From Planctomycetota bacterium (GTDB taxonomy: Bacteria > Planctomycetota > Phycisphaerae > Phycisphaerales > UBA1924), in the NCBI GenBank assembly GCA_018968885.1, contig JAGWZK010000001.1:186001-250000 (forward strand): a stretch of DNA of 64,000 bases, in the 5' to 3' direction. A program made the translations under genes and the position numbers. Of the stretch, positions 30,003 to 38,195 are shown in pieces (the stretch's first letter is position 1; each line of letters opens with the position of its first letter). The notes below the pieces were generated by a model. It was not told where the DNA came from. It made no database searches and saw only the letters and a program-made list of their open reading frames with translations.

Positions 30003-30455
30003 GCACCGCTGGCGCGGTGCACAACCAAGTGCGTTGATCTTGTACGTGGGTGTGGCTGCGCCACTACCCCCGTCTATTCACCGATGCCGCTACGCGGCGT
30101 CAAATCCCCTCACGGAGGTACCCAACCTGACTATTCACCATTGCAGGTACGCGGCGGAAGCATGTATGACATCGCGTAGCGATGGTGGTGAATAGCCGTG
30201 GGCTGTCGCGCAGCGACGCCCACGGAGCACGTCCTCCTTTCGAGCTGTGCACCACGCAGTGGTGCAGTTGGCCCACCAGCACCGCTGGCGCGGTGCCGTG
30301 TTGATGGGTTGGGCGAGTTCCGGGGGTGGGGCTACGCCCCAACCCCCGTCTATTCACCATTGCCGCTACGCGGCAGAAGTTGCCGCAGATTGAGTTCGTG
30401 GGGTTGAGATGTTGCGGCAACCCACGTTCATCGACGGTTGCCGCTGCGCGACAGA
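30003..30455. repeat. Cluster of REP-like palindromes upstream of the IS200-like transposase
   Basis: A dense set of short stems with TAC, GTA, TGC, GCA or TGGC loops. GCACCGC-TGGC-GCGGTGC occurs twice, identically (30003-30020 and 30279-30296). The word CTATTCACC followed by a small stem occurs at 30074-30098 (GCCGC-TAC-GCGGC), 30131-30154 and 30350-30374 on the plus strand, and inverted at 30170-30195 (CATCGC-GTA-GCGATG). A longer hairpin precedes CTATTCACC in three of the four copies (for example 30196-30225). A further stem is TGCACCAC-GCA-GTGGTGCA at 30248-30266. A degenerate copy may lie at 30428-30455. No gene is supported in this roughly 450-base stretch. Confidence 0.8.
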
Positions 30456-30477
30456 TGCGTGTGGTACATTCATCGTC

Positions 30478-30930
30478 ATGGCCAACACGTTGACGAGCAT
30501 TCTGATTCACATCACATTTTCGACGAAGAATCGTGAGCCGATGATTGCAGCCGACATTCGCGACGAGTTGTTTCAATACATGGGTGGCGTGTGCCGCGAG
30601 ATGAAATGCGTGCTGGTGCATGCGGGCGGGGTGAGTGATCACGTTCATCTCCTGATTTCACTGGACAAGACTGTGTGTGTTTCGGATCTGATGATGCATG
30701 TGAAGCGGGCGAGTTCGGGGTGGATGAAGAACAGTCGGCCGGGGCAGCACCTGTTTGCGTGGCAGGATGGGTATTTCGCGTTTTCAGTTGGACATGATGA
30801 TGTGGAGCGAGTGCGGGCGTATTTTGACGGGCAAGAAGAGCATCATGCGAGGGTTGATTTCAAGACAGAGATGGAAACGTTTTTGAAGAAGTATGGTGTG
30901 GCGTTTGATCCGAAGTATGTTTGGAACTGA
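30478..30930 (+). CDS. IS200-like / REP-associated tyrosine transposase (Y1, HUH)
   Basis: 150 residues. The HUH metal motif is H55-V-H57 in GVSDHVHLLIS. The likely nucleophile is Tyr115 in RVRAYFDGQEEHH. ILIHITFSTKNREPMI at the N-terminus and FAWQDGYFAFSV plus FLKKYGVAFDPKYVWN at the C-terminus match the small IS200/REP-type transposase family, which cleaves and joins single-stranded DNA at hairpins. No TnpB or second ORF is present, and only the upstream side carries palindromes. This fits a RAYT with its REP substrates better than a complete IS. The gene is intact. It lies 21 nt from the end of the convergent phage-like operon. Confidence 0.88.
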   Translation: MANTLTSILIHITFSTKNREPMIAADIRDELFQYMGGVCREMKCVLVHAGGVSDHVHLLISLDKTVCVSDLMMHVKRASSGWMKNSRPGQHLFAWQDGYFAFSVGHDDVERVRAYFDGQEEHHARVDFKTEMETFLKKYGVAFDPKYVWN

Positions 30931-30951: not shown

Positions 30952-31221
30952 TCAGCGTGTGGTGCGGGGGCGGCGGCGTGACTGGAGTCGGGGTTGGAGG
31001 CGATTGAGGAGGATGCGTTGGGTGGATTCGAGGGCGGTGAGGGCGCGGGTGCAGTTTTGAGTGAGGGTGGCGAGGGTGTCGAAGCCGAGGCGTTCGGTGA
31101 TGAGTTTGTTGTGGGCGTCGGCGAGTTGTTTGTCGCGTGTGAGTGCCGCGCGTCGCTCGAGAAGCCAGCAGCAGGCGATGAGGCCGGCTGCGCCGAAGTT
31201 GGTGAGGAGGGTGGGGTCCAT
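30952..31221 (-). CDS. Small membrane-anchored phage-like protein (possible holin or Rz-like role)
   Basis: 89 residues. One N-terminal hydrophobic segment (LLTNFGAAGLIACCWLLE) is followed by an amphipathic, probably coiled region (RDKQLADAHNKLITERLGFDTLATLTQNCTRALTALESTQ) and a basic tail. This resembles small phage membrane proteins placed after tail genes, but the function is inferred only from layout. GGAG lies about 5 nt before the ATG. It is the last gene of the minus-strand capsid operon. The opposite strand and alternate frames give low-complexity shadows. Confidence 0.6.
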   Translation of the reverse strand: MDPTLLTNFGAAGLIACCWLLERRAALTRDKQLADAHNKLITERLGFDTLATLTQNCTRALTALESTQRILLNRLQPRLQSRRRPRTTR

Positions 31222-31283
31222 GGGGGCTCCGGAGAATCGAGGTGTCGAGCGGAGGAGAGCAGGAGAGCAACTCGCTGCGCGGA

Positions 31284-31658
31284 TCAGGTGGGGAGGAGTT
31301 TGCGGAAGGTGGCGGAGTAGGTGATGGAGCGGGTGCGGGCGCGATCGGTGGGGGCGAGTTCTTTGAAAGCGACGAAGTGGATGTCGGACCAGGTGTGGCC
31401 GTGGTCGTCGATGAGATCGGCGGCGGTGGGAGGGTGAGTGAGGAGCGCGGTGATGTTGTTGCGCAGCGTCCAGAGAGCAGATTCGGTGGAGGCGACGAGG
31501 CGGCCGGTGACGGTGATGACAAGCTCTTTGAGGCCGATGGGGAGAGAGGCGGGGTCGAGCGCGCCCTGGGAGATGAGTGGGATGAGGGTTTGTCCTTGAT
31601 CGCCGATGGTGAAGCGATGAGGCCCGACGAAGATGGAGAGGCCGTTGAAGGTGGACAT
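31284..31658 (-). CDS. Phage-like structural protein, probably tail-associated
   Basis: 124 residues, MSTFNGLSIFVGPHRFTIG... to ...ITYSATFRKLLPT, mostly predicted beta-strand with no signal or membrane segment. I recognise no family by motif. Size, position behind the capsid and connector-like genes, and coupling to the neighbour (9 nt after its stop) suggest a head-completion or tail protein. GAGGTG lies 6 nt upstream of the ATG. Confidence 0.55.
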   Translation of the reverse strand: MSTFNGLSIFVGPHRFTIGDQGQTLIPLISQGALDPASLPIGLKELVITVTGRLVASTESALWTLRNNITALLTHPPTAADLIDDHGHTWSDIHFVAFKELAPTDRARTRSITYSATFRKLLPT

Positions 31659-31667
31659 GACAGCACC

Positions 31668-32063
31668 TCAGAGGATGGTGATGGGGTCGGTGGCGCCATT
31701 GGTTGAGATGGCGATGAGGGAGATGGTGCGGGTGGCGCCTTTGGGATTGAGGGAATGGGTGCAGGAGCGGACGACGGTGGAGGCCTGGAGGGTGAGAGAG
31801 CCACTGTCGGAGTCGTTGGGTTTGGCGTGGATAGTGAGGGTGGCGGAGGAAGAGGGAAGGGGCGCGGCGAAGTCGGATGAGGTGAGATACTGAAGGATGG
31901 TGATGAGAACTTTCTGCTCGGGGATATCGGCGAAGGTGGGGTGTGGGCCTGCATCGGAGAAGTCGATGGCTTCGCGCGACGCGGTGCGATCGATGGAGAT
32001 GGAGGAGACGCTAGAGAGGAGGAGAGAACCGAAGGTGACGCGAGTGGGGGATGAGAGGAACAT
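31668..32063 (-). CDS. Phage-like structural protein, probably tail-associated
   Basis: 131 residues from the ATG at 32063 (MFLSSPTRVTFGSLLLSSVSSISIDR). GGAG 8 nt upstream fixes this start over the longer frame to 32105. The sequence is beta-rich (ATLTIHAKPNDSDSGSLTLQASTVVRSC) and ends TISLIAISTNGATDPITIL. Function unknown; placement suggests a tail or neck protein. It is followed 9 nt later by the next structural gene and preceded by a roughly 230-nt gap filled with repeats. Confidence 0.55.
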   Translation of the reverse strand: MFLSSPTRVTFGSLLLSSVSSISIDRTASREAIDFSDAGPHPTFADIPEQKVLITILQYLTSSDFAAPLPSSSATLTIHAKPNDSDSGSLTLQASTVVRSCTHSLNPKGATRTISLIAISTNGATDPITIL

Positions 32064-32100
32064 GGCAAAATCTCCAGAAGGGAGGCATAAAACCGAAGAG

Positions 32101-32270
32101 TTCAACGCAGAGGCACAGAGACGCAGAGGTTGATCGGAGGAAGAAAGAGGAAGTGACGGAGTGGCAGAGTGAAGAGATGAGAATTGCAGATTTGAAATTC
32201 AGATTTGAAAAGAATCAGAAGCAGCAGAAGAAAAGCGTGAGAGACACACTGACCCCAAAGCGGGTCAGTG
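32101..32270. repeat. Gap with dispersed repeats A and C and a perfect hairpin
   Basis: 32101-32150 carries family A (TTCAACGCAGAGGCACAGAG... then CGGAGGAAGA), also found at 32969-33019. 32183-32212 carries family C (GCAGATTTGAAATTCAGATT), also found at 36969-37000. 32247-32255 and 32262-32270 form a perfect nine-pair stem CACTGACCC/GGGTCAGTG. The gap lies inside the phage-like operon. Confidence 0.65.
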
Positions 32271-32297
32271 GCACGGAGAAGGGCATTGGGAAGGGAG

Positions 32298-32945
32298 TCA
32301 GGCGCGAGTGAGGTGGAATTGGGAGGGGGAGCGGGTGGTATCGGGGAGGCCATCGGAGTTGGTATCGAGTTGGGCGGAGATGAAGCGTGCCGCGCGTTCG
32401 AAGAGGAGCATGTAGACCGTTGCAGCGCGGGCGATGGAAGCGGAGGAGGGGAGGGTGAGAGAGGCGGCATCGGCGAGATGACGGAGAGTGAGGAGAGCGA
32501 TGGGGCGGATGAGTGTGCGGGGATTGGTGATGTGGAGTTCGGTGAGGGTGCCGCTGGGAGGGGATGTGGAGGAGGGAGTGAGGCCGAGGGATGAGAGGAT
32601 TTCGGATTCGGCGGCGGCGAGCTGGGGGGCGAAGGTGTGGATGGAGTAGGGGCGATCGGTGAGTGTGCCGATGGGGAGAGGAGAGCCGCTGGGTTCGGCA
32701 CGGAGGCGGGAGATGGTGAGGGTGTTGGCGGAGGTGCGGGCGATGATCTCGTAGGAGATGTCGTCGATGGTGATAATGTGGCCGGGAGAGATGTTGGCGG
32801 CGGTGAAGGTGGAGTCTTGAGTTGATGCGGTGAGCGCGGTGGCACTGACGGAGCAGACGCCGGTGGAGAGGCGCTGGCCGAGCCAGGAGACGGAGCGGAG
32901 GAGGGAGGGATCGATGACGAGGAGGTCGCGGTCGGAGGTGAGCAT
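32298..32945 (-). CDS. Phage-like head-tail connector candidate
   Basis: 215 residues. The start (MLTSDRDLLVIDPSLLRSVSWLGQRLSTG) is followed by a beta domain (ITIDDISYEIIARTSANTLTISRLR) and a helical segment with LRHLADAASL and YMLLFERAARFISAQLDTNSDGLPD. It lies directly downstream of the capsid gene, where head-completion or connector proteins usually sit. The assignment is from position; I see no decisive motif. A run AAAGGAACTCCC before the ATG supports the start. Confidence 0.55.
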   Translation of the reverse strand: MLTSDRDLLVIDPSLLRSVSWLGQRLSTGVCSVSATALTASTQDSTFTAANISPGHIITIDDISYEIIARTSANTLTISRLRAEPSGSPLPIGTLTDRPYSIHTFAPQLAAAESEILSSLGLTPSSTSPPSGTLTELHITNPRTLIRPIALLTLRHLADAASLTLPSSASIARAATVYMLLFERAARFISAQLDTNSDGLPDTTRSPSQFHLTRA

Positions 32946-32968
32946 GGGAGTTCCTTTTTGAAGGACTT

Positions 32969-33019
32969 TTCAACGCAGAGTCACAGAGACGCAGAGGACA
33001 ATCGGAGGAAGACGAGAAG
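32969..33019. repeat. Dispersed repeat family A, second copy
   Basis: TTCAACGCAGAGTCACAGAG followed by ACGCAGAGGACAATCGGAGG matches 32101-32150 over about 45 bases. A third fragment (acaacgcagaggcggggaga) is at 34491-34510. All three sit in gaps between capsid-operon genes. Confidence 0.7.
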
Positions 33020-33080
33020 AGAGAGGAAGAGGTGCAGAAGAGAAATGGGCAAATAAGCGAGGAAGGAGAAAGGCGGGGTT

Positions 33081-33192
33081 CGTCCGCACAAAGTGCGGGC
33101 GGTGTAGAGAGGCGTTTTCCGGGGGCTGGATCGCCCAATCTTCGATTGGTCGCTCTGCGCACCCCGGCAATTCTCGTTCGCCCTACGGGCGA
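33081..33192 (+). repeat. Composite REP-like element, copy 1
   Basis: In order: CGTCCGCACAAAGTGCGGG (stem), TTTTCCGGGGGCT, a stem around TCGCCCAATCTTCGATTGG, GGTCGCTCTGCGC, CCCGGCAATTCTCGTTCG, and the stem CGCCC-TAC-GGGCG. The same blocks in the same order occur inverted at 63431-63529. A stem with a TAC loop is also the core of the palindromes next to the transposase. It lies between the capsid and connector-like genes. Confidence 0.75.
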
Positions 33193-33247
33193 AGAGGGAA
33201 CGGAAAGCCTTGCCGCGGACAGTGGCCTGCGGCAAGACTGAGAGTGA

Positions 33248-34420
33248 TCAGGTGATGCTGAGGCCGCGGATCATGCCGTGGGCGAGTTCGTTGCGGAACT
33301 CGAGGGTGTATTCGCCCAGGAGTTGTCCACTGACGGAATCGCCGGTGGTGGCGAGGGGTTTGTAGTGGAAGGAGCGATTGGTGAGGGGGAGGACGTTGAT
33401 GCGTGAGGAATCGAGGAGGAGGAGGGAATCAGCGGGCATCCAGCGTGAGACGACGACGCGGCAGACACCGAAATCGGATTCGTAGACGCTGACCATTTCA
33501 CCGAGGCGTGCATCGGCGGGGGAGTAGGCGCGTGCGGTGCTGGCGATGAACTGGTTGATGCGGCGCTTTTGGAAGCCACCGACGACGATGGTGTCGACGG
33601 AGCCATTGGATTGCTCCCAGATATTGCGGAGGGCGGTGTTGACGAGGGTTTCGTTGAGGTCGGTGCCGCTGCCGCCACCGGAGGGGAAGCCGCCGGAGCC
33701 GGGAGTGAACTTGTTGGTGGTGATGTATTTGACGAGGCCATCCATGGTGCGGCGGACGGAGGAAGTGCCCTGGGGGTTGGTGCTGGCGGCGACGCCATTG
33801 ATGATGCAGTTTTCGAGATCGCGAAGGAGTTCGCGGGCGCGTTCGGACTTTTGGTAGTCGAGCTCATCGGCGATACCGATTTTGCGTGCGGCCTGCATGG
33901 AGCCACTGACATCGACGGTTGCGGAGAAGATCTGGGTGTAGTTCTGTCGACGCTGACGAGTGGTGGCGCGGGCGGCGGAGGCGGGGGCGCCTTCGAGGGC
34001 GGCGTTGCCGATGATGTGGAGACGGCGGCCGTTGGTGAGGGTGAAGGCGGGGGATGAGCCGTAACGACGGATGACGGTGATGATGCTGGCGTTGATGGCG
34101 GTGACGAGGAGGACTTCGCTCGAGGTATCGGGGCGAACCAGATCACCAACCTGGAAGCGGGAGATATTGGCGACGGTGATGTCGGTGCAATCCTGACCGT
34201 TGGGGGAGAAGGTGGTCTGATTGACGGAATCGAAATTGGGGAGGAGGGTGTCTTCGATCCACTCGTGGACAGTGGATTGCGCGACGCGCTGAGGATCGCC
34301 GAGACGATCGAGGAGAGGAGTTTCATAGGGAGAGACGATGGAGATGATGTCGGAGATGTCTTCGGCGAGTTCGGGGAGAGTGGAGCCGGCATCGAAGGTG
34401 GATTTTCCGGTGTAAGGCAT
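33248..34420 (-). CDS. Major capsid protein, SU10-like (DUF5309) type
   Basis: About 390 residues from the ATG at 34420 (MPYTGKSTFDAG), with AAAGGA upstream; the longer frame runs into repeat B and is unlikely. The N-terminal block SDIISIVSPYETPLLDRLGD, then STVHEWIEDTLLPN, QIFSATVDVSGSMQAARKIGIADELDYQKSERARELLRDLENCIING, and the late blocks VVVSRWMPADSLLLLDSSRINVLPL and LLGEYTLEFRNELAHG are those of SU10-type capsid proteins with the HK97 fold. The frame is intact. It should form the shell of a virus-like particle together with the portal and scaffold-like gene upstream. Confidence 0.82.
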   Translation of the reverse strand: MPYTGKSTFDAGSTLPELAEDISDIISIVSPYETPLLDRLGDPQRVAQSTVHEWIEDTLLPNFDSVNQTTFSPNGQDCTDITVANISRFQVGDLVRPDTSSEVLLVTAINASIITVIRRYGSSPAFTLTNGRRLHIIGNAALEGAPASAARATTRQRRQNYTQIFSATVDVSGSMQAARKIGIADELDYQKSERARELLRDLENCIINGVAASTNPQGTSSVRRTMDGLVKYITTNKFTPGSGGFPSGGGSGTDLNETLVNTALRNIWEQSNGSVDTIVVGGFQKRRINQFIASTARAYSPADARLGEMVSVYESDFGVCRVVVSRWMPADSLLLLDSSRINVLPLTNRSFHYKPLATTGDSVSGQLLGEYTLEFRNELAHGMIRGLSIT

Positions 34421-34438
34421 GGGGAGTCCTTTCAAGAG

Positions 34439-34476
34439 AGGCACTAGGCACTTGGCACTAGGCACTAGGCACTAGG
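34439..34476. repeat. Tandem GGCACTAGGCAC repeat (family B) before the capsid gene
   Basis: Five near-identical 7-8 base units of ggcacta/ggcactt type lie directly upstream of the capsid ribosome site. Related arrays occur at 36921-36950, inside a glycosyltransferase gene, and at 29930-29946. Confidence 0.7.
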
Positions 34477-34535
34477 GGAAAGAAAGACAGACAACGCAGA
34501 GGCGGGGAGAAATGGGGTCAATGAGGCGGTGAGGA

Positions 34536-35030
34536 TCAGGAGTTGCGTTTCAGCCGCAGGTAGGAGAGGAGTGAGCGGCGGTCGTTGGTGGAGCGTGCGG
34601 CGTCGGCGAGATCGGAGAGGGAGGTTTGCGGTTGGCCGGTGAAGGGAGGATCGGGGGACATGGAGGAAGGGGGCGGCGATGTACGGAAGAGGTAGGGCTT
34701 GGTGCGCTGAAGTTGTTTGAGGGCTTCGGCGGAGGACTTGGCGCCTTTGGCGACGGCGTCTTTGATGAGGGTGCGGGTGATATCGGTGTCGATGGCGGCG
34801 CTGGTGAGGATGGTGCGATCGAGATCGGCATCGGCGCGAGATTCGGCGAGGGCGGTGTTGGCTTTGTTGAGATCCGCGCGGAGTTGATCGAGTTGTTTGG
34901 AGAGATCATCGATGCGGGCTTCGGCGCGGAGGGCGCGATCGCGCCATGCAGAGTCGTTGGGCTTTGGTGATGGAGCGTTGATGGGAGGCGGTGAGCCGCC
35001 ACCACCTTCTTCGGGAAGGCCTTCGGGCAT
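34536..35030 (-). CDS. Scaffold-like phage protein
   Basis: 164 residues. A Pro/Gly-rich start is followed by a strong coiled coil (WRDRALRAEARIDDLSKQLDQLRADLNKANTALAESRADAD), a helical middle and an Arg/Lys-rich end (NDRRSLLSYLRLKRNS). Length, coiled coil, basic C-terminus and position between portal and capsid match phage scaffolding proteins such as the GP20-like type. AGGAG lies 7 nt before the ATG. No protease domain is fused or adjacent. Confidence 0.7.
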   Translation of the reverse strand: MPEGLPEEGGGGSPPPINAPSPKPNDSAWRDRALRAEARIDDLSKQLDQLRADLNKANTALAESRADADLDRTILTSAAIDTDITRTLIKDAVAKGAKSSAEALKQLQRTKPYLFRTSPPPSSMSPDPPFTGQPQTSLSDLADAARSTNDRRSLLSYLRLKRNS

Positions 35031-35060
35031 GGGAATCTCCTTGTGTGAGAGGTGAAGGAA

Positions 35061-36518
35061 TCAGGCGACGACGTCGTCGCCGGGTGCGTAACCGAGTTCT
35101 TTCAAGAGGCGTTCGGTGGGAACGCCCAGGCGTTGCTTGATTTCAGCAGCGCGGAGGGCGGCTTCGGGATCGACGGGGAGTGGGTCGGACCAATCGACAC
35201 GGGTGGTGCGTTGGTCGGGCGCGGTGGGGAGGAGGTGGTGGGCGTCGAGTGTGTCGAGGATGAGAGAGTTGAGTGTGGTGATGGCGTGGGCGTAGGCGAC
35301 GCGTTTGCGGGCGGTTTTGCTGAGGACGCCCATGAGGGTGATGCGGAGGGCGTTGGCGCTGGAGAGGTTGCCGATTTTGGCCTTGACGACGCCGGTGGCA
35401 ATGGGAGGGACGCCGGAGATTTTGTCGAGGGCATCGCGGAGTTCGTCGATGTGGGCGTTTTCGGAGGGGCTGGAGGAATCTCCACCGAATTCGGAGATGG
35501 AGGCATCGGGGTTGTCGGTGCTCCAGACGACGCCGGGAGAGACGGGGGATTTGTCGAAGCCGTGGAGGCCTTTGGCCAGATACATCTTGAAGGACTGCAT
35601 AGTGACGCGCGATGCGCGATCGGAAAGTCGCGTGTTGAGTTCATCCTGGAGGGGGATGAGAGGTTCGACTTCGGAGAGACCTTCGTAGCGGAAGGGTTGC
35701 GAGGAGTTTTGGATGTGGACGACGGGGAGGGGAGAGTTTGGAATGAGAGAGGGGTGTGTTGCGCTGGCGCGGCCGGAGGTGAGAGAGAGGGAAGAGCCGG
35801 GGAGGATGAGTTCGCCGGTGAGTGAGGAATCGCGGGGGTGATCTCCCCAGGCGGCCTCCCCTTTGCGTCCGGTGGTTGAGAGCCGCAGTTGATTGAGCAT
35901 CTCAATAAGCCGCGCGGGCGCGAAAGGAGAGGCCGAGCCGACGGAGGGAGGAGCGGAGACGAAGAGGGCATCGAGGGTGCGGTAATCGCGCGAGTTCAGG
36001 ATGGGGACTGCGCGAGTGGGATCGACGAGCTCGATGCGGATGAGATCGAGGGCCTGGTCGAGGGAGTTGATGCGAGGAAGGGAAGGATCGATGCGGAGGA
36101 CGAGATCGATGTGGCCGTAGATGTGAGCGAGGAGCGCGGCATCGTGAAGGAGCGCGGTGCCACCGGAGCGCTCCCAGATGGTGTCGAGAGTGGATTCGAT
36201 GGTGCGAGCGGTGGGAAGATCTGTGGCGGCGGAGCGGAGGGAGATGGGTTTACCGAAGAGAAAATCGACCATGGTGTGAATGCGCCAGCCGATGTCATTT
36301 TCGATGACGGGTTCGCGGTGCGCGGCGTTGGCGGAGTTGATGCGGGGCGGGAGGGAGCATTGCTGCGCCAGGGAGTACCAGCGATGCTGAGAGGTGGAAT
36401 TGGGCGTGAGGGGATTGCGGTAGTAGGAGTGGAGTTTGCGGAAGAGTGGGAGGCGCTGGGTGTTGTGAGTGGTGAGTGCCGCGGAGAGGCGGAGGCGGAG
36501 TGGTTCGTTAAGGGGCAT
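35061..36518 (-). CDS. Phage portal protein, SPP1 Gp6-like
   Basis: About 485 residues. The ATG at 36518 has GGAG 7 nt upstream; the TTG at 36530 would overlap that site. Blocks include RWYSLAQQCSLPPRINSANAAHREPVIENDIGWRIHTMVDFLFGKPISL, a portal-type N-terminus, then EVEPLIPLQDELNTRLSDRASRVTMQSFKMYLAKGL and ISGVPPIATGVVKAKIGNLSSANALRITLMGVLSKTARKRVAY, the helical part in which Gp6-type portals join the wing and crown. In a virion, twelve copies form the DNA gate. It is the first gene of the minus-strand capsid operon, and no terminase gene lies upstream of it. Confidence 0.8.
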   Translation of the reverse strand: MPLNEPLRLRLSAALTTHNTQRLPLFRKLHSYYRNPLTPNSTSQHRWYSLAQQCSLPPRINSANAAHREPVIENDIGWRIHTMVDFLFGKPISLRSAATDLPTARTIESTLDTIWERSGGTALLHDAALLAHIYGHIDLVLRIDPSLPRINSLDQALDLIRIELVDPTRAVPILNSRDYRTLDALFVSAPPSVGSASPFAPARLIEMLNQLRLSTTGRKGEAAWGDHPRDSSLTGELILPGSSLSLTSGRASATHPSLIPNSPLPVVHIQNSSQPFRYEGLSEVEPLIPLQDELNTRLSDRASRVTMQSFKMYLAKGLHGFDKSPVSPGVVWSTDNPDASISEFGGDSSSPSENAHIDELRDALDKISGVPPIATGVVKAKIGNLSSANALRITLMGVLSKTARKRVAYAHAITTLNSLILDTLDAHHLLPTAPDQRTTRVDWSDPLPVDPEAALRAAEIKQRLGVPTERLLKELGYAPGDDVVA

Positions 36519-36567
36519 GGGAAACTCCAAAGGTGGGACACAAGTGCGTCTTTACCCATGGAGTTGA

Positions 36568-36597
36568 GCGACGCGTTTGCGCGCGCAAACGTGTCGC
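36568..36597. promoter_or_regulatory. Long palindrome, candidate operator 1 of the capsid operon
   Basis: A 30-base palindrome with 14 of 15 pairs, core GTTTGCGCGCGCAAAC flanked by GCGACGC and GTGTCGC. It lies 50 nt upstream of the portal start codon. Its core recurs at 36691-36706. Confidence 0.6.
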
Positions 36598-36625
36598 ACG
36601 GGGGTCGCGAAAAGTGGTGGATACG

Positions 36626-36640
36626 CCTTATGGGATAAGG
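36626..36640. promoter_or_regulatory. CCTTATGGGATAAGG palindrome between the two operators
   Basis: Perfect six-base arms around GGG, in an AT-richer stretch that may hold the operon promoter. Confidence 0.4.
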
Positions 36641-36690
36641 ACTTATGACTTTTTTCTGGGGTGGTCCGGTAACGTGATTTTCGTGACCGG

Positions 36691-36706
36691 GTTTGCGCGC
36701 GCAAAT
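36691..36706. promoter_or_regulatory. Candidate operator 2 of the capsid operon
   Basis: GTTTGCGCGCGCAAAT followed by GCGTCGC, sharing the core and one GCGACGC flank with site 1. The two centres are about 116 bases apart. Confidence 0.55.
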
Positions 36707-36746
36707 GCGTCGCTCTTAACAAATCGTTCGGGTTGGTGGAGCGCGA

Positions 36747-38195
36747 TCAGGCGTTGCGAAGGCGGGAGAGGGTGTGGTGCAGAAGCGCGAGGTAGCAGAG
36801 GGCAAGGGCCCAGGAGATGCCGCCGACGGAGCGCCACTTCTCGACGGCGTCTTTGAAGTACTCACCACCGGGGGGGAGGATGAGGGCGAGAAAGAGGATG
36901 AGGGTGGAGAAGAAAAGCAAGGCGCTAGGCACTAGGCGCTTGGCACCAGGGTCGGAAGCAGAAGAAAGAGATTTGAGATTTGAGATTTCAGATTTGAAAA
37001 ACGAGGAACCAAGAACACCGGCCTGGAGACGGGTGCCACCCAAGACAGAGCCACGCAACAGAAGCAGCGCGGCGATGAGGATGAACATGGGGAGGAGGAG
37101 GACCAGGTGCCGCGGATTGGTCTGCGGACCGAAGCAGAGGACGGTGGCGAGGAGGCCACTGAACTCGGTGGCGATCAGGAGTGGTGAAGAGTGGGCGGGG
37201 TGAGGAGGATTCCAGGGAAGAGTGAAGAGGGGGATGCGGGCAGTGCGGTAGAGAAGGAGAGCGGAAGTGACGAAAGCCGCGGCGGCGAGAGAGATGAGGG
37301 AGAGCGTGAGGGGATCGGTGAGGGGCTTACTGGTGAAGCGGGAGATGGCGCTGGGGATGCTGATGGAGCGGATGTCGGCGAGACCTGCGATGCGGGCGGT
37401 GGATTGGCCGGGGGTGGTGGGAGCGATCGTGTTGGGATCGCGTTCACGGGCATCGGTGATTTCCGATTCGTGGCTGACCATGCGGGTGAGGCCGCCGAAG
37501 GCCTTGGCGAGGTAGCGGGAGTTGGTTTCTGTGCCGAGGGTTGTGGCGGGGAGGAGTGCCCAGAGCGCGCTGAAGAGGAGAGAGAACGCCGCGGCTTTGT
37601 AGTTGCGACGGAGGAGGAAGTAGGGGACGGCGATGAGTGTGATGTATTTGATGTTGGCTGTGAAGCCGAGGATGAGGCCAGCGAGCGCGGGGCGACGCTC
37701 CATGAAGATGAGGACGAGGAGCCAGAGGGCAGCGATGAGGAGATTGCACTGACCCATGACGATGTCGGCGCGGGTTTTGTCGGCGATGAGGATGAGCCCG
37801 GCTGAAGCGACGAGGAGTGCGGTGGGTGAGAAGGTGGGGAGTGTTGAGCCAATGACGCGGCGGAGGACATCGCGCGAGGCAAGGAGAGCGGTGAAGAGGA
37901 GAAGGGAGAGGTTGAGCGCTATCCAGAGAAGGGCGGCGTGGTGATCGGCGAGACGTGAGAGGGGAACGAGGAGCCAAGCCAGGAGGGGTGGATAGATGTA
38001 GCCGAGGGAACCGGCGGAATAGAGGTCTGTGCCCATGTCGAGGGCACGGGCCCCGGCGAGGAACTCGGCGAAATCCTTGAGTTTGCCATCGTTGATGGCG
38101 CGGATGGTGGAGCCCGCCGACCAGATGGCGATGCCCAGGAGGATGGCGGCGGAGATGGAGCCGAGGATGCGGGATGAGCGGGGGTTGAAGGGCAC
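36747..38195 (-). CDS. GT87-like membrane glycosyltransferase (DUF2029)
   Basis: 482 residues with about ten to twelve transmembrane helices. The signature is near the start: DFAEFLAGARALDMGTDLYSAGSLGYIYPPLLAWLLVPLSRLA, a periplasmic loop with acidic residues and the Y-x-YPP motif of the polyprenyl-phosphate-dependent GT87 (PimE-like) mannosyltransferases. LILGFTANIKYITLIAVPYFLLRR is another family block. Near the C-terminus the segment FFKSEISNLKSLSSASDPGAKRLVPSALLFF is encoded by dispersed repeats B and C (36921-37000) that have entered the gene in frame. The sugar and acceptor are unknown. Confidence 0.78.
   Translation of the reverse strand: MPFNPRSSRILGSISAAILLGIAIWSAGSTIRAINDGKLKDFAEFLAGARALDMGTDLYSAGSLGYIYPPLLAWLLVPLSRLADHHAALLWIALNLSLLLFTALLASRDVLRRVIGSTLPTFSPTALLVASAGLILIADKTRADIVMGQCNLLIAALWLLVLIFMERRPALAGLILGFTANIKYITLIAVPYFLLRRNYKAAAFSLLFSALWALLPATTLGTETNSRYLAKAFGGLTRMVSHESEITDARERDPNTIAPTTPGQSTARIAGLADIRSISIPSAISRFTSKPLTDPLTLSLISLAAAAFVTSALLLYRTARIPLFTLPWNPPHPAHSSPLLIATEFSGLLATVLCFGPQTNPRHLVLLLPMFILIAALLLLRGSVLGGTRLQAGVLGSSFFKSEISNLKSLSSASDPGAKRLVPSALLFFSTLILFLALILPPGGEYFKDAVEKWRSVGGISWALALCYLALLHHTLSRLRNA
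36921..37000. repeat. Dispersed repeats B and C inside the GT87-like gene
   Basis: 36921-36950 is an array of ggcgctaggcactaggcgct type (family B). 36969-37000 is agatttgagatttgagattt type (family C). They lie within the coding frame without breaking it. Confidence 0.7.

Follow-up and report, generated by a model that had tools for sequence, protein, structure and literature searches.

A compact operon of seven phage-derived genes in a Planctomycetota bacterium probably encodes the head module of a divided DNA-packaging particle that Phycisphaerae have domesticated and inherit vertically, and this particle is most likely a gene transfer agent (GTA). The operon lies on the minus strand of a window of 64,000 nucleotides (contig JAGWZK010000001.1, positions 186,001 to 250,000 of the forward strand), and all operon coordinates given here are window positions. 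Its vertical descent, the selection acting on it, its conserved single copies, the intact packaging motor that co-occurs with it and the lack of propagation genes together point to a domesticated DNA-packaging particle.

The seven open reading frames (ORFs), which span 36518 to 30952, were all uninterrupted in the raw sequence, and each was preceded by a GGAG/AGGA-type ribosome site, as the first-pass annotation of this DNA had described. Profile searches bore out its calls for the first three genes, which stand in the usual phage order of portal, scaffold and capsid. The portal gene (35061..36518) encodes a 485-aa protein of the SPP1 gp6 type (PF05133, SPP1_portal, 7.6e-15; phrog_64, 9.2e-17). 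It is followed by a gene for a 164-aa scaffold-like coiled-coil protein (34536..35030) that matched head scaffolding family phrog_194 at 4.3e-7 and PF06810 (Phage_scaffold) at 4.6e-8, the latter a borderline match of 33.7 bits against a 35-bit cut-off. The third gene (33248..34420, start ATG at 34420) encodes a 390-aa major capsid protein of the SU10 type (PF17236, SU10_MCP, 1.9e-89); the search tables number capsid residues one higher because the query started one codon upstream. The remaining genes, g4 to g7, gave no Pfam or PHROG match and no meaningful NCBIfam match when searched alone. Ordinary host genes flank the operon. Neither it nor its immediate surroundings contained a terminase, integrase, protease or tape-measure gene or a tRNA, in agreement with the phage functions first listed as missing. 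The GC content of the operon (0.61) is the same as that of its surroundings and thus gives no sign of recent acquisition.

Within the order, the capsid gene was detected in 159 of 301 genomes, and about 109 of the 118 sampled genomes of the window's family (f1) carry it, almost always once. Capsid homologues in the order are mostly 54-69% identical, with an open reading frame. A search of the phylum recovered the capsid also in families f7, f8 and f9 of the same class, outside the order, and in another class (f30, f51, f81, f83 and f91), mostly at 44-51% identity; the gene order of the operon is kept in most loci. Named records with the capsid were of Phycisphaerae/Planctomycetota or of unspecified bacteria, with one exception. 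That record (L207, RHKP01000008.1) is titled Cyanobacteria, carries the Phycisphaerae operon and is probably a mislabelled metagenome bin. In a tree of 43 capsids, f1 formed a single clade (100/99), as did f2, f4, f8 and f30. Family labels require 13 changes on this tree, compared with a minimum of 11 and a mean of 26.9 for shuffled labels, and the exceptions to taxonomy are three IMG/VR contigs and the weakly resolved families f5, f6 and f9. Since the capsid tree tracks host families and orders, the capsid gene is vertically inherited, to the depth of a bacterial class.

Codon comparison of close pairs revealed purifying selection on all seven genes, with median ratios of nonsynonymous to synonymous substitution (dN/dS) between 0.12 and 0.26: 0.12 for the capsid, 0.17 for the portal, 0.22 for the scaffold, and 0.20, 0.26, 0.22 and 0.17 for g4, g5, g6 and g7, respectively. 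In one same-genus pair (G068/G184), dN/dS was 0.036 for the capsid and approximately 0.22 for TerL, the large terminase (dN 0.057, dS 0.255). These low values indicate that the operon genes are in use. The comparison of loci and of dN/dS that the first-pass annotation had proposed therefore came out on the side of maintenance, in single copy and with gene order kept. Neither of the two situations that it had named as damaging was seen: close relatives carry the same compact operon rather than full phage modules, and portal and capsid searches returned no second copy in the genome that could mark a complete prophage elsewhere.

An unlinked packaging gene, as had been postulated for a GTA-like particle, was found. 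Profiles for Terminase_6N and PHROG 2 identified a single orphan TerL in the same genome (C19:60118-61755), 157 kb from the capsid gene, and the same search was successful in almost every operon-bearing genome. Across 13 aligned TerL proteins the Walker A and Walker B motifs, the nuclease acids D361, D431, D514 and D521 and four cysteines are invariant, and on these residues the orphan TerL is predicted to be catalytically intact. The conserved island in which it lies encodes a repressor with a helix-turn-helix (HTH) and an S24 peptidase domain (CI/LexA-like), divergent from a sigma-region-4-like HTH protein. Besides TerL, the island also encodes an ABC/AAA ATPase and a GNAT-like protein, and in other families TerL is preceded by genes for a ParB-like protein and for one that looks small-terminase-like by eye. 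The GDSM serine and the Ala-Gly cleavage site of the S24 repressor are kept in all five genomes checked, and three islands, including this one, have operator-like inverted repeats (GTTCAC...GTGAAC) in their divergent promoter region.

TerL was present in 167 genomes of the order. When four weak TerL matches were left out, capsid and TerL occurred together in 147 genomes, capsid alone in 12, TerL alone in 16 and neither in 126 (phi 0.81, kinship ignored). On 52 shared contigs the two genes lie 8.5-647 kb apart (median 37 kb), and in complete or near-complete genomes they are nearer each other than random placement would give. In a genome of another order (G613) the terminase island and the head operon share a strand and are separated by approximately 10 kb that includes host genes, and in a genome of another class (G474) TerL directly follows the head genes. 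Head and motor genes probably formed a single cluster ancestrally and were separated later. The trees of capsid and TerL have correlated distance matrices (Mantel r 0.70, p 1e-4; 0.43, p 0.03 within f1), and the nearest phage TerL proteins are only about 24-29% identical, over part of their length.

Upstream of the portal gene, on the same strand, the perfect palindrome TTTGCGCGCGCAAA occurs twice within a stretch at 36539..36733, once at 36576-36589 and again, 116 bp away, at 36692-36705. These are the only TTTGCGCGCGCAAA sites in the window (at 0-1 mismatch to the 16-mer). The whole genome contains 13 exact sites, which include six pairs, each exactly 116 bp apart, and none of the reversed pattern. 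Among 100 portal genes of relatives, a set that includes some duplicate records, 57 are preceded by at least one TTTGYGCGCRCAAA-like site (2.2% in shuffles) and 29 by a pair 85-125 bp apart (0 of 5000 shuffles). From this pattern, the paired-palindrome stretch is predicted to be a dedicated promoter of the operon. Genome G224 has exactly two exact palindrome pairs, one of which is on the capsid contig, approximately 2.2 kb beyond the capsid gene on its portal side. The other precedes an orphan gene (L341:8924-10453) whose product has a helical-looking core and a low-complexity tail and appears small-terminase-like by eye. In the genome of the window, paralogous elements of about 180 bp are 82-88% identical to the portal promoter element, and at least four of them precede a multicopy gene with a near-identical N-terminus. 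Copies of this gene (start HPYERPPIPIANLTAEDH, first ~134 residues nearly identical) were seen on contigs C11, C14, C16 and C26 (loci L336-L339), each behind a 180-bp paired-palindrome promoter like that of the capsid operon, and most of them at or near contig ends. Profile comparison gave no support to the idea that these multicopy 'HPYERPP' genes are small terminases.

We used AlphaFold2 models, made from homologue alignments, to examine two of the genes without family matches. The model of g6 (31284..31658, start 31658, 124 aa) had a predicted local distance difference test score (pLDDT) of 93. It resembled SPP1 Dit (Z 9.9, root-mean-square deviation 2.5 A over 111 residues), reached Z of about 10 against baseplate proteins of Milano, E217 and Pam3, and gave Dit-like matches in BFVD as well. 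The modelled fold is that of a tail-tube/Dit protein, and g6 would probably form a distal-tail or hub ring. The model of g4 (32298..32945, start 32945, 215 aa; pLDDT 94.5) contains an inserted beta domain, and its full-length matches are to phage necks and adaptors, all of them weak (Mu neck, Z 6.1; Moo19, B2 and N4 tail proteins, the SU10 virion and the JBD30 connector, Z 5-6). A Foldseek search of g4 returned nothing below 0.001 from PDB and mostly partial matches from BFVD. Its place beside the capsid gene is conserved among relatives, and we consider g4 a probable head-tail adaptor (connector), which is in line with its first description as connector-like. Sequence profiles of g4, g5 and g6 gave nothing credible against PDB sequences. 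Two genes had been called tail-like; the modelled fold upholds this for g6, while g5 (31668..32063, start ATG at 32063, 131 aa) has no match in PDB sequences, Pfam or PHROGs. It is a conserved protein, kept in 69 of 120 loci, and in the window's family its gene lies between g4 and g6. The last gene, g7 (30952..31221, start 31221, 89 aa), was rightly described as a small membrane protein, with an N-terminal membrane helix and a coiled coil recognized by eye. An alignment of 26 homologues showed invariant G, W, ER and H residues, and the homologues weakly match Rz-like spanins (best 3.1e-5) and bacteriocin-associated families (best 9e-4) in PHROGs, the latter of which we take to be BhlA/UviB-like; the protein may thus be holin- or spanin-like. 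Roughly half of the loci have a gene for a lipoprotein after or near g7. A possible lipoprotein at 51.8 kb of the window was judged a chance match, as the stretch appears to encode another, larger membrane protein.

The operon is not of one length in all families. In f5 and parts of f6 and f9 it is longer, with additional genes for a LamG-domain protein, a 700-aa protein and a hub-like protein of approximately 580 aa, and the capsid tree requires at least three gains or losses of this module. A genome-wide search with the hub profile (A9) found no hub in any tested genome of f1, f2, f4, f7 and f8, and part of the genomes of f6 and f9 lack it too; in the window's family, the same profile gave no sign of a third, tail-bearing locus. 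Because the hub is absent where capsid and TerL are present, heads and motor appear to have been kept without the tail module of the long operon, and unrelated tail genes may exist elsewhere in these genomes. The most reduced operons (f4 and f8) encode portal, scaffold, capsid, adaptor, a transmembrane coiled-coil protein and a lipoprotein. It is conceivable, if rather doubtful, that several Phycisphaerae lineages keep under selection tailless capsids that pack DNA, made from this set of proteins together with the unlinked terminase. If so, DNA would leave the cell or be stored in tailless heads, and any delivery would be of a non-phage kind, perhaps based on membranes or on uptake. To our knowledge, no tailless gene-transfer or DNA-storage particle of such a kind has been described.

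Gene identities, conservation, co-occurrence, capsid descent, purifying selection and the promoter were obtained by computation, and from them we infer how a particle would be induced, assembled, loaded with host DNA and released, and how it would transfer genes. The head operon would supply an SU10-type shell built on the scaffold, with the portal, the adaptor, a Dit-fold ring (g6) and the membrane coiled-coil protein, and the island some 157 kb away would supply the terminase motor and its controls. Inactivation of the S24 CI/LexA-like repressor would act as the trigger, and a regulator would act at the palindrome pair upstream of the portal gene. Formation of procapsids would follow, and TerL would dock on the portal and fill them with DNA. 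This DNA would most likely be host chromosome, since no replication, integration or self-recognition genes lie alongside and head and motor are encoded tens to hundreds of kilobases apart. Release would follow from lysis by g7 and, in many relatives, the adjacent lipoprotein.

Several observations weigh against this proposal. The evidence for the system is genomic, and the particle, its packaged DNA and their transfer are predictions. A complete set of tail genes was not found in the window's family or several others, and the genome-wide absence of the hub makes a phage-like route of injection doubtful; the missing full tail is the strangest feature of the system. No portal-type palindrome was found in the TerL island of this genome at 0-3 mismatches, and no matching pair was found near TerL in other genomes; control of the island by these palindromes, and with it common control of both loci, is thus unsupported. 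The phi coefficient was computed without correction for shared ancestry, and the TerL tree is weakly resolved, with the TerL of this genome on a long branch. The capsid match of about a dozen genomes begins near codon 57, as if cut, and three genomes have an internal stop in the capsid gene. Incompleteness of metagenome-assembled genomes also makes gene absences less certain.

It is unlikely that the heads, although domesticated, serve another use, as a DNA store, a kin-directed lysis particle or a nanocompartment, either filled or empty and kept or released, without gene transfer between cells. Such a use would suit the lack of a full tail in the window's family and several others, as well as the stripped operons of f4 and f8. 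However, the retention of a portal and of a co-occurring TerL with intact catalytic residues implies DNA packaging, and the predicted fold of g6 suggests that some delivery end may remain in the window's family. Retention of portal and TerL likewise makes the shell with another cargo, which the first-pass annotation had offered beside a GTA, less likely.

We regard as very unlikely a second possibility, that these are widespread temperate phages or satellites, active and with split genomes, that co-diverge with their hosts. Some phages do have related capsids: those encoded on two IMG/VR contigs that carry DNA-metabolism genes of phages (L242:3844-18057 and L243:5970-10288) are 54-58% identical, with the capsid gene unusually placed among early genes. 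The phage genes of L242 include RecT, an exonuclease, DNA methyltransferases and TerL, and L243 has a DNA methyltransferase. Nevertheless, a pattern-based scan of 2.9 million viral contigs recovered three capsid relatives only, and the nearest capsids in 50,697 phage records (INPHARED) are about 24-35% identical, with none listed above approximately 35%. A temperate phage would be one mobile block of integrase, replication and packaging-tail-lysis genes, whereas no such block surrounds the operon, neither locus shows integrase or replication genes, the S24 repressor is the sole immunity-like gene, and the capsid is usually present in one copy with a tree that follows taxonomy. A functionless, decaying prophage remnant, as might be suggested by the missing tail genes and by broken genes in a few relatives, is hardly credible when ORFs stay open at 54-69% protein identity, dN/dS is well below 1 and the catalytic residues of TerL are invariant across the class.

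GTAs, particles that package mostly random host DNA and carry it between cells, have no sequence definition as a class. The candidate shares with them intact head and packaging genes of tailed-phage origin, inheritance with the host over deep time, purifying selection and a division over two loci, at neither of which self-propagation genes were seen. As to a delivery apparatus, the Dit-fold g6 is present and the hub of the long operons is missing genome-wide, and unrelated tail genes may exist. RcGTA has an HK97-family capsid and a complete siphovirus-like tail. The present system differs from RcGTA and CcGTA of Alphaproteobacteria in its SU10-type capsid and SPP1-type portal (SU10_MCP and SPP1_portal being the only capsid or portal Pfam families reported), in a TerL unlinked from the portal and in having no full tail cluster. 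It is like them in that phage-derived genes are inherited vertically over deep time, at several loci and with dedicated regulators (PMC11841831, PMC9632790). A review describes GTAs as frequently split between several loci and as being confused with remnants, and it lists no planctomycete among the proven ones (PMC11841831); no Planctomycetota GTA was found in the literature searched, an absence that is not proof. The divided-genome GTA cited there (Stanton et al. 2009) is similarly divided and prophage-like, but it belongs to another phylum, and here the split separates head from terminase and most tail genes are missing. Encapsulins consist of a lone shell gene with a cargo enzyme and no portal or terminase, whereas portal and scaffold genes adjoin this capsid gene and TerL co-occurs. 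Tailed phages of Sporosarcina, Bacillus, Pseudomonas and Vibrio share the SU10 capsid family and differ in the low capsid and TerL identities given above.

Proven GTAs are known from few groups. If the proposal of a domesticated, divided GTA is right, it would represent an independent domestication in a new phylum, class-wide, with the motor encoded far from the head and much of the tail missing. Three complete genomes (G039, G049 and G055) match the cultured strains Mucisphaera calidilacus Pan265, Poriferisphaera corsica KS4 and P. heterotrophicis ZRK32, respectively, so that the idea can be tested in the laboratory. ZRK32, a member of Phycisphaerae, carries the operon without tail genes (L148). 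This strain was reported to release hexagonal phage-like particles of approximately 30 nm, which were assigned by the authors to a 21.9-kb extrachromosomal phage (PMC10945688); we treat these particles as a lead only.

A few loci depart from the common arrangement. In G033, G164 and G128, three of the genomes whose capsid match begins near codon 57, an element of 10.5-11.6 kb lies inside the capsid gene, near codons 57-61, with portal and scaffold on one side and the remaining operon on the other (L132:7182-8978, L050, L133/L042 and L134/L043). With gene names assigned by eye, these elements encode a large serine recombinase of approximately 600 aa at one end, a fusion of prohead protease and HK97 capsid, and a RepA-like ATPase. 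By gene content they look like capsid-forming phage satellites with their attachment site within the domesticated capsid gene. Excision could restore the gene, and the elements may thereby switch the particle off and on. In G012 the portal was found in frame over its C-terminal part only (L039, 10562-11110), and that operon may be broken. In G119 a gene for a 1317-aa protein kinase-WD40-like protein (L034:10931-14884) separates portal from scaffold. Within the window itself, the spacers of the scaffold, capsid, g4 and g5 genes hold short repeats that recur elsewhere in the window, as expected for a long-resident locus. A 44-base repeat (CTCTGCGTCTCTGTG...) occurs in two of the operon spacers (32101-32144 and 32969-33012), and further parts of the spacers have matches in short segments located upstream of the operon (region 36910-37000). 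A gene resembling a Y1-type transposase associated with repetitive extragenic palindromes, called from motifs by eye, adjoins the downstream end of the operon (30409-30930, plus strand).

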